Below, in pieces: positions 7,210 to 48,520 of a stretch of 64,000 nucleotides of DNA. The notes under the pieces were generated by a model. The model saw nothing but the letters and a program-made list of their open reading frames with translations, was not told the origin of the DNA and did not search any database. Source of the stretch: Mariniflexile litorale (GTDB lineage Bacteria; Bacteroidota; Bacteroidia; Flavobacteriales; Flavobacteriaceae); contig NZ_CP155618.1 in NCBI RefSeq assembly GCF_031128465.2, forward strand, positions 2,594,501-2,658,500, in the 5' to 3' direction. The position numbers and the translations under genes are program-made. How positions within the stretch are numbered: the first letter of the stretch is position 1; each line of letters starts with the position of its first letter.

Positions 7210-8487
7210 CTAATACCCATACTTTTCTTTCCAACGTTGTTTTAAGAATTCTCGATGTGCGTTTTCACGTGCGTTATTTCCAGGTTCGTAAAGTTTGGTG
7301 TTTTTTACGGTATCAGGCAAAAACTCCTGGTTTGCAAAGTTGTTTTCATAGTTATGTGCGTATTGGTAATTTTCACCATAACCCAGTTCTTTCATGAGTT
7401 TTGTAGGCGCATTTCGAATGTCTATTGGCACCGATAAATCCCCTGTTTCTCTTACCAACTGTTGTGCTTTATTAATAGCCGTATAAGCGGTATTACTTTT
7501 AGGTGAACAGGCTAAATAAGTAGCACATTGGCTAAGCAGAATTCTAGATTCTGGGTATCCAATAGTTGTAACCGCTTGAAATGTATTGTTGGCAATAACC
7601 AAAGCAGTAGGATTGGCGTTTCCAATATCTTCGCTTGCTGAAATGAGTAACCTTCGGGCTATAAATTTTACGTCTTCACCACCTTCAATCATACGGGCTA
7701 ACCAATACACAGCGGCGTTAGGGTCGCTACCACGAATGGATTTTATAAATGCCGAAATAATATCGTAATGTTGCTCGCCTGTTTTGTCGTAACGAACCGT
7801 GTTGTTCTGAATTTTTTGAAGCACACTCTCGTCTGTAATTTCAATCGTATCGGCATTTTCTGAATTTACGATCAGTTCAAAAATGTTCAATAGTTTTCTG
7901 GCATCACCACCAGACAGTCTTAAAAGGGCATTCGTTTCCTGTAAGTTTATTTTCTTTTTAGATAAGGATTCATCATTTTCAATAGCACGTTTTAAAAGTG
8001 TTTCTAAATCGTTTTTATCAAAAGCATTTAAAATATAAACTTGGCAACGCGATAAAAGTGCAGGAATCACCTCAAAACTTGGATTTTCGGTAGTAGCTCC
8101 AATTAAAGTAATCCAACCTTTTTCAACGGCTTGTAATAATGAATCTTGTTGCGATTTGCTAAATCTATGTATTTCGTCAATAAACAAAATAGGATTTTTA
8201 GTAGTAAATAAACCACCGCTTTGCTTTGCCTTATCTATCACGTCTCTAATATCTTTAACGCCAGAATTTATAGCACTTAAGGTGTAAAACGGTCTACCAG
8301 ATTTGGTAGCAATAATATTTGCCAAGGTTGTTTTCCCTGTTCCAGGAGGTCCCCATAAAATCATCGACGGAATTAATCCCTGCTTTATATGTTGCGTTAA
8401 TACACCGTTTTTACCAACTAAATGTGTTTGGCTTACATAGTCGTCTAAGGTTTTTGGGCGTAATCGTTCTGCTAAAGGTTCATTCAT
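7210..8487 (-). CDS. rarA: replication-associated recombination protein A (AAA+ ATPase)
   Basis: RarA/MgsA, a clamp-loader-like AAA+ ATPase that acts at stalled replication forks. At 425 residues it has the usual length. Walker A is [10 protein letters not shown] (45-54), Walker B is [10 protein letters not shown] (100-109), and sensor GATTENPSF follows. The C-terminal part holds the family tetramerisation region ([24 protein letters not shown]). It is monocistronic and converges on the hypothetical gene at 6314-7189. Confidence 0.95.
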
Positions 8488-8491
8488 AATG

Positions 8492-8499
8492 TAAAATTA
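8492..8499 (-). promoter_or_regulatory. -7 box TAATTTTA, 4 bases before the rarA start
   Basis: Read on the minus strand, TAATTTTA is followed by CATT and then the rarA ATG. This is the leaderless arrangement seen at radC and rlmB. No -33 element is at the right spacing. Confidence 0.35.
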
Positions 8500-8548
8500 A
8501 AACAATTCTTTTTCAAAAAGGAATCTCTATGCTATTAAGTTTTTTTTT

Positions 8549-8633
8549 GGCGTGTCCCCGTAAAAACGGGGTCGGGTTTTACGCTATATCTTTTTTTCGT
8601 GCCTCAAAAAGGATGCCGCTTCAACCCCTCACG
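8549..8633. repeat. structured intergenic element, multi-helix, candidate dispersed repeat
   Basis: An 85-base element between divergent rarA and the rhomboid gene. Nested complementarity is visible. CGTG (8551-8554) pairs with CACG (8630-8633). CCCCGT (8556-8561) pairs with ACGGGG (8566-8571) around an AAAA loop. GGG (8574-8576) can pair with CCC (8625-8627). ATCTTTTT (8588-8595) pairs with AAAAAGGAT (8606-8614) with one bulge. It resembles GC-rich intergenic elements, with TTTACGCTATATC and GGATGCCGCTTC blocks, that I recall as dispersed in Bacteroidota genomes. No second copy is in this window. Confidence 0.65.
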
Positions 8634-8685
8634 TGGTGTACTTCTGCCATTTTAGCACAAACTTTAAACTTGGTTAACTATTTGC

Positions 8686-8693
8686 TATCTTTA
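8686..8693 (+). promoter_or_regulatory. -7 box TATCTTTA, 5 bases before the rhomboid start
   Basis: TATCTTTA is followed by ATTTC and the ATG at 8699. TTTA at 8663-8666 lies exactly 19 bases upstream and could be a weak -33 element. A leaderless transcript is predicted. Confidence 0.4.
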
Positions 8694-8698
8694 ATTTC

Positions 8699-9424
8699 AT
8701 GAATGACCAAGACCATTTTAAATTTTCAACAGGTGTTATAGCATACCCTATTTTTTTTGTGCTTACTATTTGGTTGGTATTTTGGGTGGAAGTTCGTTTT
8801 GGTTTCAACTTTAGTAAGTTAGGTATTTATCCACAAACCCTAAAAGGATTACGTGGTGTTTTATTGAGTCCTTTTATTCATGGGAGTGTACAGCATTTAT
8901 ATCATAACACCATTCCGTTGTTTGTATTGTCAATGGCTTTATTTTATTTTTATAGGCGAATAGCTTGGAAAGTTTTATTTTTCGGAATTTTAATTTCAGG
9001 TTTTTTAACTTGGTACATTGGCAGACCTTCCTACCACATAGGAGCCAGTGGATTAATATACGTTTTGGTAAGCTTTATATTTTTTAAAGGTGTTTTCGCA
9101 AAACATTATCGACTTATTGCCTTATCATTATTAGTAATTTTCATGTATGGAAGTATGATTTGGTATGTATTACCATTGGAAGAAGGCATTTCGTGGGAAG
9201 GTCACTTATCCGGGTTAGTTACAGGGTTACTGTTTGCATTAACTTTTAGAAAAGTTATAGAAAAACCTGAAAGATATGTTTGGGAGCAAACCGATTATAA
9301 CGAAGCGGAAGATCCGTTTTTAAAACATTTTGATGAAAATGGTAATTTTATTGAAAACCTAAATCAAGAAGTAGAGGAGGAGCAACCAATTGTTAATTAT
9401 ACTTTCAAAGAAAACAAGAAATAG
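8699..9424 (+). CDS. rhomboid family intramembrane serine protease
   Basis: A 241-residue polytopic membrane protein with about six transmembrane segments. The rhomboid catalytic dyad is present: Ser117 in GASG (115-118) and His169 in WEGHLSG. The conserved His/Asn loop is HLYHNTIP (66-73). Rhomboids cleave transmembrane substrates within the membrane; the substrate here is unknown. The C-terminal ~55 residues form a charged cytoplasmic tail. It is a single-gene unit converging on rlmB with a 9-bp gap. Confidence 0.93.
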   Translation: MNDQDHFKFSTGVIAYPIFFVLTIWLVFWVEVRFGFNFSKLGIYPQTLKGLRGVLLSPFIHGSVQHLYHNTIPLFVLSMALFYFYRRIAWKVLFFGILISGFLTWYIGRPSYHIGASGLIYVLVSFIFFKGVFAKHYRLIALSLLVIFMYGSMIWYVLPLEEGISWEGHLSGLVTGLLFALTFRKVIEKPERYVWEQTDYNEAEDPFLKHFDENGNFIENLNQEVEEEQPIVNYTFKENKK

Positions 9425-41538: not shown

Positions 41539-41650
41539 TGATTTAAAACTCACGATTTTTTTATGTTTTAGAGAAAATGTTACTAAAACGTTATAGGTGC
41601 TTTTTTAGATAATTATTTAAGAACATCTCAAAAGAAAGCAGATTTAAACG

Positions 41651-45526: not shown

Positions 45527-46462
45527 ATGGAACAAACCACAAATACAATTTTAATGATTCGTCCTATAAATTTTCGGATGAACGAGCAAACGGCTGTTAA
45601 TAATTATTACCAAAAAGTAATAGATAATGTATTGCCGCAAACTGTTAATGCCAAAGCACAGCAAGAGTTTGATATGCATGTTGAAAAGCTTAGAAGTATT
45701 GGAGTAAATGTAATTGTTGTGAACGATACCAGTGAGTTTGATACACCAGATTCTGTTTTTCCAAATAACTGGGTGTCCTTTCATGAAAATGGTGATGTGG
45801 GGTTGTATCCAATGTTTGCAGAAAACAGGCGCTTAGAGCGTAGTGAAGACGTTTTGGAGGCTGTTGAACAAGCCGGTTTTGTTATTAATAATATTGTTGA
45901 TTATACAGATGCCGAAGAAGAAAGTGTTTTTCTTGAAGGTACAGGAAGCGTGTTATTAGATCGTACCAATCATAAAGCCTATTGCGCTTTATCACCTAGA
46001 GCCGATGAAGATTTATTTATTGAGTTTTGTGAAGACTTTGAATATACCCCTGTTGTTTTTACGGCGAACCAAACTATGAACGGCGAACGTAAAGCTATTT
46101 ATCACACAAATGTTATGATGTGTATAGGAGAGACCTTTGCTGTTATTTGCCTAAGCAGTATTGACGATAAAAAAGAACGTAAAAGCGTGATTAGTCATTT
46201 AAAAGAAGATGGTAAAGAGATTATAGAGATTACTGAAGCACAAGTAAATAATTTTGCAGGGAACATGCTGCAAGTTAAGGGGGCTAATGATGAACGGTAT
46301 TTGGTAATGAGTCAAGTAGCTTATGATTCTTTAACAGCAAATCAAATAGAAAGGTTAAAAAAACACAGCCACATACTTTCTAGTTCTTTAGATACAATAG
46401 AGGCTTGTGGAGGTGGTAGTGCACGATGTATGATGGCAGAAGTGTTTTTGCCAAAAGCTTAA
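45527..46462 (+). CDS. ctlX: citrulline utilization hydrolase CtlX-type protein
   Basis: A 311-residue protein of the same superfamily, with the N-terminus typical of CtlX (TNTILMIRPINFRMNEQTAVNNYYQ). Further marks are FPNNWVSFHENGDVGLYPM, the Glu-Gly motif LEGTGSVLLDR, the His segment YHTNVMMCIGE and the nucleophile Cys301 in GGGSARCMMAEVFLP. CtlX members are linked to citrulline utilisation; the exact reaction has not, to my knowledge, been settled for flavobacteria. It has its own -7 box although it lies 103 bp behind another superfamily member. Converges on the histidine kinase with no gap. Confidence 0.85.
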   Translation: MEQTTNTILMIRPINFRMNEQTAVNNYYQKVIDNVLPQTVNAKAQQEFDMHVEKLRSIGVNVIVVNDTSEFDTPDSVFPNNWVSFHENGDVGLYPMFAENRRLERSEDVLEAVEQAGFVINNIVDYTDAEEESVFLEGTGSVLLDRTNHKAYCALSPRADEDLFIEFCEDFEYTPVVFTANQTMNGERKAIYHTNVMMCIGETFAVICLSSIDDKKERKSVISHLKEDGKEIIEITEAQVNNFAGNMLQVKGANDERYLVMSQVAYDSLTANQIERLKKHSHILSSSLDTIEACGGGSARCMMAEVFLPKA

Positions 46463-48520
46463 TTATGATGATGGTCTAGATTTTGGTAATTGTACATAAA
46501 ATGTGCTACCAACATTTATAGTGCTTTCTACCCAAATTTTACCATTGTTTAGTTCAACCAATTCTTTACAGATTGATAAGCCCAAACCAGTACCTTTTTC
46601 GTTATTAGTACCTACGGTTGTAAATGAACTATTTTTAAATAGTTTTTCTATATTTTGTTTAGAAATACCAATTCCAGTATCAGCAATACTAATAATACAA
46701 CTACCATTACTTATATGATTTGAAATGGTAATGGTATCTCCGCTTTTACAGAATTTTAAAGCGTTAGCAAGTAGGTTTTGAACGACTATTTCAAACATGC
46801 TTTTATCGGCATAGGCAAAATCACGTAAAGAATGGTCAATTAATTCAATGCCTTTATTTTCGATACGTTGTTCAATCAATCTAATCTTATCTTCAAAAAC
46901 TTCTTGTATATCAAATAAGGTTGGTTTTGGTTCTAAAGATTGCATTTGAGATTTAGACCAGTTAAGTAAGTTGAATAAAAGCAATGAAGCATTATTCGCA
47001 TTTTCGCTTAATTCAGGAATTAAATTATCAAACTCTTCTCTAGATAATGAACCGTCTTTTAATAAATCAATAAACCCGTTTATTGAAGAGAGTGAATCTT
47101 TTAAATCGTGAGAAACAATTGAAAATAGTTTGTCTTTTACATTATTAACGTTTTCTAGGTGTTTTGTTTGCTCTGAAAAAGCTTCATTTTGCAATTCAAT
47201 TTTAAGGTTTTTTTCTTCTAATTCTTGAGTATATTTTATATTGCTACTTCGTTTTAAATAAATTAAGATTAAAAAGGTTGAAACAATAGCGAGGGCGGCT
47301 AAAAGACCGTAAAAAATTAACTGAAACTTATTAAATTCTTCTTTAGATTCATAAAAACTGCCATTAATAGTTTTTGTAGGACTATTATTTGCTAAATCTT
47401 TTTCAAAATTAGGATTATAATCTAATTGAACAGAATCTGAATCCTTTATATTATTAGTGTTATTAAGACTTCTTTTCAAATTGTAATACTCTCGTTGCCA
47501 AATAAATGCGCTATTAAATTTGTTTTTGGTAGAATCCAAAACCATCATCAACTTGTAATATTTAAGAAGTTCTGATTTGTTATTATTGTTTTTAGCAATT
47601 ACACCTGCTTCATAAAGTTGTTGCTCAGCTAGAACTAACCGGTTGGTTTTTAAATTTAATTCTCCAAGGCTGTTCAAAGTAAATAAAATACCATCTTGAT
47701 TATTAGATTTTCTATTAATATCTAAACCCTGAATTAGGTATTGGGTAGCTTTCTCATAATCGTTAAATTTTAAATATTCGGCACCTAGTTTTGGATAAAT
47801 AATGCCCTGTAACGAATCGATGTTAGTATTTTTGCTATTTAAAACTTTTTGGTAATATTCAATGGCTTTTCGATTCTCATTTTTATTTGAGTATAATTCG
47901 GCCAATTGTTTGTAAGATTGTATGAGTTCTCTATTGATATTTAATTGTATTTGGATTTCAACCGCTTTTAAGTTAAACTCAATGGCCCTATCAACGGCAT
48001 TTATACCCTGGTACGCTTTAGCTAAATTGCTATAAGCTAAACTAAGGTCTTTTTTAATATTTTGTTTTTCTAGTTCTTGAATAGCTGCTAACGAAAATTG
48101 CAAACCTTTAGAGTAATTACCTCGTTTAATTTCTATTAAACCTATACTATTATTAACTTTTGCTACCCAAAGTGTATTCTTTAAATGTTTAAATAATGCT
48201 TTAGATTTTTCATACCCGCTTATCGCATTTATATAATCGCCCTTTTGTGCGTATATAAGAGATTTATAGTAGGTTGTTTCGGCAATACCTTTTGTGTAAT
48301 TTAAATTATTTGAAAGTTTTTCACTTTCAATAACATATTTCAAAGCTCTGTCATAATCGTTAATTTCATAAAGCGATTTAATAAGCTTTAAAGAGGTTTT
48401 GACTTTTAAAGAATCTTGAGTTTCGAAAGCTAGTTGTATGGAAAGACTATCTAACTCTTTGGTTTGAGAGAAACCCAAGAATACAGATAAAAGAATAATC
48501 GAAATAATTATTTTCCTCAT
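46463..48520 (-). CDS. sensor histidine kinase with periplasmic TPR domain
   Basis: A 685-residue membrane kinase. Order: signal peptide (1-18, ending GFSQ); about nine tetratricopeptide-type repeats (roughly 20-350), predicted periplasmic; a transmembrane helix near 402-423 (LIFYGLLAALAIVSTFLILIYL region); a short coiled coil; a HisKA domain with the phospho-acceptor His471 in FSIVSHDLKDS; and a HATPase domain with NALKFC, DTGIGI and GTGLGLSI. No response regulator is adjacent. The TPR domain probably senses a protein or peptide partner; the signal is unknown. TATATTTA lies 2 bases before its ATG. Confidence 0.92.
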   Translation of the reverse strand: MRKIIISIILLSVFLGFSQTKELDSLSIQLAFETQDSLKVKTSLKLIKSLYEINDYDRALKYVIESEKLSNNLNYTKGIAETTYYKSLIYAQKGDYINAISGYEKSKALFKHLKNTLWVAKVNNSIGLIEIKRGNYSKGLQFSLAAIQELEKQNIKKDLSLAYSNLAKAYQGINAVDRAIEFNLKAVEIQIQLNINRELIQSYKQLAELYSNKNENRKAIEYYQKVLNSKNTNIDSLQGIIYPKLGAEYLKFNDYEKATQYLIQGLDINRKSNNQDGILFTLNSLGELNLKTNRLVLAEQQLYEAGVIAKNNNNKSELLKYYKLMMVLDSTKNKFNSAFIWQREYYNLKRSLNNTNNIKDSDSVQLDYNPNFEKDLANNSPTKTINGSFYESKEEFNKFQLIFYGLLAALAIVSTFLILIYLKRSSNIKYTQELEEKNLKIELQNEAFSEQTKHLENVNNVKDKLFSIVSHDLKDSLSSINGFIDLLKDGSLSREEFDNLIPELSENANNASLLLFNLLNWSKSQMQSLEPKPTLFDIQEVFEDKIRLIEQRIENKGIELIDHSLRDFAYADKSMFEIVVQNLLANALKFCKSGDTITISNHISNGSCIISIADTGIGISKQNIEKLFKNSSFTTVGTNNEKGTGLGLSICKELVELNNGKIWVESTINVGSTFYVQLPKSRPSS

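Follow-up and report, generated by a model that had tools for sequence, protein, structure and literature searches.

What is an 85-base, apparently multi-helical sequence doing between two divergent genes at 8549-8633 of the window, the whole 64,000-nucleotide stretch of the Mariniflexile litorale chromosome analysed here? The preliminary description had proposed a structured repeat widespread in Bacteroidota and without known function, and had suggested a REP-like element, a transposase-mobilised unit or an RNA. The analysis leads to the reading, held with moderate confidence, that this sequence is one member of a repeat dispersed over the chromosome and homologous to the Rfam family Flavo-1, which probably acts as folded DNA and not as RNA. 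The flanking genes are indeed divergent, with Pfam assigning MgsA_C (2.2e-69; RarA) to the minus-strand frame and Rhomboid (1.1e-15) to the plus-strand frame. The element itself runs from about 8549 to 8634, one base longer than originally described; it has 86 bases with approximate limits, and the minus strand is taken as folded, from 8634 to 8549. The features are as follows.

7210..8487, minus strand: neighbouring gene rarA/mgsA, outside the element, marking the site (Pfam MgsA_C / AAA)
8699..9424, plus strand: neighbouring gene for a rhomboid-family protease, outside the element, marking the site (Pfam Rhomboid)
8549..8634, minus strand: whole element, a Flavo-1-like three-way-junction repeat with tip type T1 (R1 and RF01705 matches)
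8629..8634, minus strand: 5' arm of P1, ACGTGA on the minus strand; this copy has mismatches at the first and at the last pair (alignment A1, pair counts)
8550..8555, minus strand: 3' arm of P1, ACACGC on the minus strand (alignment A1, pair counts)
8556..8571, minus strand: P2 hairpin, CCCCG TTTTTA CGGGG on the minus strand
8626..8628, minus strand: 5' side of the P3 base, GGG, partner of 8574-8576
8574..8576, minus strand: 3' side of the P3 base, CCC
8577..8625, minus strand: middle and tip of P3, with two 3x3 internal loops bearing invariant G.A / A.G opposites, then a putatively exchangeable tip
8597..8605, minus strand: terminal loop, GAGGCACGA

The family is already in Rfam as Flavo-1, a point absent from the preliminary description. 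When the whole window was scanned at the curated Rfam cut-offs, the element did not appear in the output. A permissive scan of 8400-8800 with RF01705 matched minus-strand positions 8643-8566 over all 76 model positions with 38.6 bits (E 7.1e-7), which falls short of the gathering cut-off of 42 bits; the orthologous copy in genome G005 exceeds it with 56.1 bits. The R1 model scores the copy at 70.4 bits (E 1.5e-14), a value that includes the copy as one of the 37 training rows. The Flavo-1 hallmarks found at 8549-8634 are a consensus stem with internal loops and covarying pairs. On these alignments the element is clearly to be read as a divergent homologue of Flavo-1, with no claim to formal Rfam membership.

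The full element exceeds the Rfam model, forming a three-way junction of a closing stem (P1), a hairpin (P2) and a long stem (P3). The complementary blocks noticed earlier are all present: CGTG (8551-8554) and CACG (8630-8633) close the structure, CCCCG and CGGGG (8556-8560 and 8567-8571) form an inner helix beside a long imperfect stem, and the two conserved-looking motifs, ACGCTATATC (8581-8590) and GGATGCCGC (8611-8619), sit in that long stem. Its tip is of type T1, ATCC-TTTTT / AAAAA-GATA, and the loop GAGGCACGA recurs in T2 and T4 tips, in some P2 hairpins and in an unrelated repeat family. Other copies vary in their letters: the P3 base can be GCG/CGC, the letters of P2 turn over between species while its stem is retained in most, and P1 occurs in many forms, among them GCGTTA, GCATTA, GCGCAA, GTGTTA and GGGTTA, with a matching opposite arm, except for the innermost pair (P1_6), which often fails and forms in 102 of 180 copies.

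The folding energy of this copy gives a modest signal, with z values of -1.9 and -2.1 for the two strands as RNA and -2.1 and -2.0 as DNA, and in L047, a typical other copy, the DNA fold is no better than chance (z -0.9); comparison between copies lifts the signal far above chance. In alignment A1, which holds 37 full copies with the minus-strand consensus P1 GCGTTA/TAACGC, P3 starting from GGG/CCC and P2 from CC/GG, 97.9% of 666 cells are paired, a share partly built in by drawing the structure from the same 37 sequences. Double changes are the stronger structural evidence. Eleven of the 18 pairs have changed on both sides, and double-change cells number 82 as against 23.7 in shuffles (sd 3.7); sliding the partners by 1-3 columns leaves 0 to 8. 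Further pair types in A1 number 14, not above the shuffles (14.0). The compensatory changes that the preliminary description had asked for are thus present. Beyond the canonical pairs, the opposite purines at columns 13/83, 15/81 and 18/78 are G.A, A.G and G.A in 37 of 37 rows, and the non-canonical pair 10/86 covaries from A.G to G.A (166 and 11 of 180 parsed copies). Because these internal-loop purines would be C and T on the other strand, the minus strand is taken to be the one that folds.

The element is not unique in its genome, as blastn returns 33 matches at E<=10, itself included, while the Flavo-1 model yields 43 at E<=10, of which 38 have E<0.02 and 21 exceed the cut-off. With the limit of E<=10, 10 of 14 control genomes also show matches to this model, all of them below the cut-off, and at E<=1e-4 it finds none in these 14. 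The kin group, taken as 60 genomes with the own one among them, has 30 carriers of Flavo-1 at E<=1e-4 under strict filters, with 0 to 33 matches per genome. Across the phylum, R1 is positive in 45 of 296 genomes, own included (strict filters, 15 candidates scored per genome), and 24 of these 45 belong to the own family. An exact 21-position pattern was met in at least 117 stretches of named genomes. Most names among the 80 stretches examined are Flavobacteriia; the seven others are Sphingobacterium, Parapedobacter, Algoriphagus, Saccharicrinis, a Chitinophagaceae and two vaguer ones. The R1 search of pattern-found stretches covered these 80 of at least 117 and a viral contig, L328, which one exact pattern had matched. 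With one T1 copy as query, blastn gave no match in 72,556 plasmids and 50,697 phages. Together with the covarying stems, the matches in the own and kin genomes bear out the proposal of a widespread structured repeat in Bacteroidota that has no known function. The listed copies measure 77 to 175 bases with two hairpins, and near-identical ones stand at unrelated sites within one genome (e.g., L042 and L047). Two copies, L106 and L296, look chimaeric by eye, with the P1 5' arm swapped for another, GAATTCrTGAAT-like repeat. At 46452-46480 and 41544-41577 of the window, related species have a Flavo-1 copy where the own genome has none.

Individual copies may also stay in place for long periods. 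At the rarA-rhomboid site the element is present in five of six Mariniflexile genomes; the sixth, G001 (L102), has several hundred bases of degenerate AACCCAGAACCC-like repeats instead. Beyond Mariniflexile, R1 matches at E<=1 in 23 of 27 loci, these 23 coming from 15 other genera; the share is biased upward since the loci were ranked by similarity to an element-containing query. The match in L413 is weak (E 0.24), and L408, L410, L414 and L415 have no R1 match at this site; by eye, an apparent remnant is all that is left in L414 and L415. At a second site, lying downstream of a gene for an M20 peptidase, the element occurs in 8 of 30 loci, just past the stop codon and in the same orientation, a count that includes the own genome and is free of the ranking bias, as the query matches ended before the element. 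Its closing pairs are GTGTT/AACAC in L343, L344, L338, L357 and L340, the same with one change in L347, GCGTT/AACGC in L350 and degenerate in L337. Three loci with no element there, L334, L345 and L358, show apparent end remnants by eye. A third site is shared by L031, L068, L069, L071 and L074, found among loci picked for carrying the family; it lies upstream of a gene that we take to be sufS from its first residues. Judged by the rarA-site comparison, the copy at 8549-8634 is an old one that appears to have held a single site over genera.

Whether the fold works as RNA or as DNA is the point at which the existing annotation has to be weighed. Under an RNA reading, the minus strand would be transcribed as a small or cis-acting RNA and its fold would act as such. 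Rfam types RF01705 as 'Gene; sRNA', Table 1 of Weinberg 2010 rates Flavo-1 'y' as RNA, and a review (PMC9029176) places it in its section on the most abundant bacterial small RNAs. The strong covariation is in keeping with an RNA as well, as is a sigma-70-like match on the minus strand (8677-8649) that points into the element, one of two in 8450-8750 where 0.7 are expected; the same interval holds no intrinsic terminator (G+C hairpin followed by a T run), which counts against a transcript. The available text of a transcriptome study (PMC9723704) cuts both ways, reporting several Flavo-1 hits in 5' transcribed regions but also hits on either strand of transcribed regions and many outside them.

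The pairing itself speaks against RNA. In 180 parsed copies (of 208 distinct ones, the rest misfitting the pattern; a smaller earlier parse took 88 of 102), 11 pair positions give 1910 Watson-Crick cells, 286 of them unlike the commonest pair, and 23 G-T, 11 A-C and 36 other cells. G-T thus makes up 23 of 1,933 standard cells, roughly a tenth of the share of G-U in a 6S-Flavo RNA control from 18 relatives (34 of 285 standard cells), where the control took 18 of 30 loci, 30 of its 34 G-U cells fall at two positions at which U-G is usual, and part of the gap may stem from gathering the Flavo-1 copies with pair-aware models that disfavour G-T. Strand preference is not seen either: in 49 tandem contexts, the orientation of the folded strand agrees with that of the genes in 20 and opposes it in 29 (p 0.25). 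As to a replication-strand bias, the Flavo-1 matches of the own genome look mixed in orientation, by eye, in both halves of the contig. The gene contexts come from 81 of 91 matches, 14 of which have no gene on one side and 3 of the rest of which lie inside an open frame, with simple open reading frames as gene calls. The 67 copies with genes on both sides comprise 49 tandem, 11 convergent and 7 divergent cases, set against 135, 25 and 42 gaps of 120-1200 bases in the same loci. The tandem copies lie a median of 63 bases from the upstream stop and 122 from the downstream start, with the stop closer in 34 of 49. On balance, the pairing, strand and transcriptome evidence favours DNA-level pairing, short of proof; the RNA guess of the preliminary description loses ground, and we consider a functional RNA distinctly improbable. 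If Flavo-1 is a DNA element, its RNA annotation misleads in many flavobacterial genomes, and a search for RNA targets would be the wrong experiment.

A further observation concerns the distal part of P3, whose tip differs as a block at orthologous sites. At the rarA site, the base is steady, with P1 CGTG/CACG in most loci and a P2 hairpin with changing letters in most, and the distal P3 falls into six types, T1 to T6, which were told apart by eye and with simple patterns. When the types are placed on a tree built from the two flanking genes (33 rows, 29 of them labelled), 14 changes are the minimum, although 11 of 30 inner branches are open and a hand count within starred clades gives 6 changes; the rows without a label are L410, L414, L415 and L102, and the R1-negative L408 received its T1 label by eye. 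The 100 Mariniflexile copies include 23 groups found in at least two species, where resemblance in one flank, whichever the side, sufficed for grouping. The tip type differs in seven of these groups: the rarA site, L050/L172/L140, L175/L148/L128, L113/L199, L035/L181, L036/L147/L135 and L144/L138. In this count, the L049 group, split by script, was taken as one tip type. Of the four copies with no assigned tip, L193 was judged by eye to match its group, and L147, L135 and L138 were counted as different from their T1 partners. The pair L035/L181 may represent two insertions, as P1 differs too. In the L175/L128 group, the scaffold is inherited and the tip is not, since G001 and G004 share the rare G-C at 12/84 but have tips of types T2 and T4.

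Similar hairpins turn up in different places. A TCCTGAA/TTCAGGA-like hairpin occupies P2 in L109, L176, L180 and L182, and a GCAATGACG-like repeat lies within the P3 loop of L054, L208 and L209. A near-identical core with unrelated loops is found in L045 together with L163-L166. The loop GAGGYACGA occurs seven times in 223.5 kb of the own genome, compared with 0-1 in five resamples, at four T1 tips, one P2 and two GTCATTGC repeats (one without a clean stem). It occurs three times in stretches of G004 (resamples 0-1) and eight times in those of G005 (1-3), in such hairpins or close kin of the repeats; the two occurrences in G003 (resamples 0-1) lie in neither. Loops common to unrelated hairpins would fit exchange, and a shared sequence preference could also yield them. 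A GTCATTGCGAGG / GCAATCTG-like repeat stands in the P3 loop of L054, L208, L209, L238 and L280, from several species and apparently in one orientation.

A wider proposal, put forward tentatively and more apt to fail than to hold, is that Flavo-1 is a folded-DNA scaffold and no RNA family, with a base fixed at sites over genera and tips that can be exchanged, whether among copies of the scaffold, from one hairpin of a scaffold to the other, or with unrelated palindromic repeats in either direction. On the main reading itself, which is held with more confidence, opening of the duplex, for example at a replication fork, would let the minus strand fold in the cell into the three-way junction. The covariation shows this structure, in which P1 closes the junction, P2 is a side hairpin and P3 a long stem with two purine internal loops. 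Copies lie between genes without strand preference and can persist long at one site, where selection or hairpin-templated correction might keep the arms complementary. The distal P3, and sometimes P2, would give way in one block to a tip taken from another hairpin, most likely by ectopic gene conversion or by a switch of template from hairpin to hairpin at the fork; none of the swapped tips was traced to a donor copy. From time to time new copies arise, possibly spread in trans by some enzyme. A benefit to the cell may be supposed. Speaking against this reading, a local role in cis could likewise explain why the element is conserved for so long at one site. If tips do pass between hairpins at fixed sites, they would form a natural record of hairpin recombination at replication forks, offering many orthologous sites at which to measure it. 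Such an exchange would be a form absent from the literature searched, in which no title or abstract on Flavo-1/RF01705, palindromes, REP or MITE (with few subscription journals covered) treats Flavo-1 as DNA or describes tip exchange.

Three other accounts at the DNA level compete with the main reading. The repeat may be a non-autonomous mobile element, of the MITE or REP type, which a transposase acting in trans mobilises with the fold as its substrate, the shared sites being old insertions or hot spots; this is quite possible, if short of an even prospect. It draws on the near-identical copies at unrelated sites, the sites occupied in relatives and empty in the own genome, and the patchy copy number from 0 to 33. 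Moreover, a Y1 transposase is more frequent in carriers, at 17 of 30, than in non-carriers, at 5 of 30 (p 0.003, over 60 genomes with the own included and ignoring kinship and genome size). The evidence on the transposase-mobilised unit of the preliminary description is divided, as no partner enzyme emerged: 13 of the 30 carriers have no Y1 match at E<=1e-4, among them G005 with 25 copies and G022 with 19, and no autonomous copy, with left and right halves 250-5000 bases apart, was recognised in 2.41 Mb (overlaps included). The single pair of halves from that pattern search, 4441 bases apart, lies in L282, a locus with three R1 matches. Target-site duplications could not be read at four sites, where the empty sites are too diverged, and gain and loss are inseparable at S2-S4 because the flanks differ there too. 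The plasmids and phages that give no match to the T1 query weigh against mobility, with one viral contig reached by exact pattern.

Alternatively, copies might be binding sites for a chromosome-structuring or replication protein that recognises hairpins, each selected at its own site with the tips free to vary. This would account for a base that stays conserved across genera at two sites despite the turnover of loops and of the letters of P2, and for groups such as L045 with L163-L166; it sits poorly with the half of the kin genomes that lack the family under the strict filters and with L414 and L415, where by eye an apparent remnant alone is retained, and we regard it as rather unlikely. A functionless quasi-palindrome, kept perfect by template switching at hairpins, would explain why the double changes exceed the G-T, A-C and other mismatched cells (286 vs 70). 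Palindrome correction alone would not be expected to produce unpaired purines that are invariant in 37 of 37 rows at columns 13, 15, 18, 78, 81 and 83, and such a neutral origin seems a poor prospect.

Comparison with known systems helps to place the element. Relative to RF01705, it has the same core, and the alignment of its minus strand spans the 76-position model from one end to the other; Rfam, however, models P3 and flanks as RNA, whereas here P1 and P2 are added and the pairing looks DNA-like. Like REP and REPIN sequences, it is dispersed between genes, palindromic and nearer to the upstream stop than to the downstream start. A REP is a 20-40 base palindrome as defined in the available text of PMC3733652, a size well below the 77-175 bases of Flavo-1 copies, and these form a three-way junction. 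Nor do Flavo-1 copies flank a cognate RAYT gene at the own-genome loci L064-L067: among these four inspected loci, out of seven with Y1, a single one contains Flavo-1 within 1.5 kb flanks, at a distance of 1.2 kb from the gene. A strict REP is accordingly disfavoured, with the two inspected RAYT-like genes carrying another palindrome by eye. The MITE hallmark of ends shared with an autonomous copy was likewise not found in the 2.41 Mb. The attC sites of integrons resemble the element in having a folded single strand, unpaired bases and a variable tip, with structure outweighing letters; the element differs in ending GTT...AAC and in having scattered copies, not arrays. The ends of attC run AAC...GTT (R'' and R' boxes). 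Since the end motifs stand in reverse order by eye, integron attC was rejected.

The Y1 genes of the own genome have palindromes of their own. RAYT/IS200 enzymes were set aside as partners, as L065-L067 carry palindromes other than Flavo-1 (by eye) and Y1 is missing from 13 carriers. At L065 and L066 (own genome 998111 and 1902833), RAYT-like Y1 genes of 195 aa are flanked by CTAGT/ACTAG palindromes, which probably constitute their own REP family. A third, diverged Y1 gene at L067 (2419324) lies by eye amid GACCTCACAGG and GACCTCACAGGTTTT...AAAACCTGTGAGGTC-like palindromes, and an L067-like palindrome stands just before the Flavo-1 copies L037, L056, L179, L186 and L192. According to the part of PMC6006769 available, the Bacteroidetes RAYT subclass 2.6 has 'atypical secondary structures' at its flanks, further copies of which lie elsewhere in the genome. 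Three further Y1 (IS200-like) genes, at 2452973, 2905870 and 2953385 of the own genome, have equal score and length and are probably identical recent copies. Elsewhere in the window, 38049-38087 matches the S4-Flavobacteria ribosomal protein leader with 51.5 bits.
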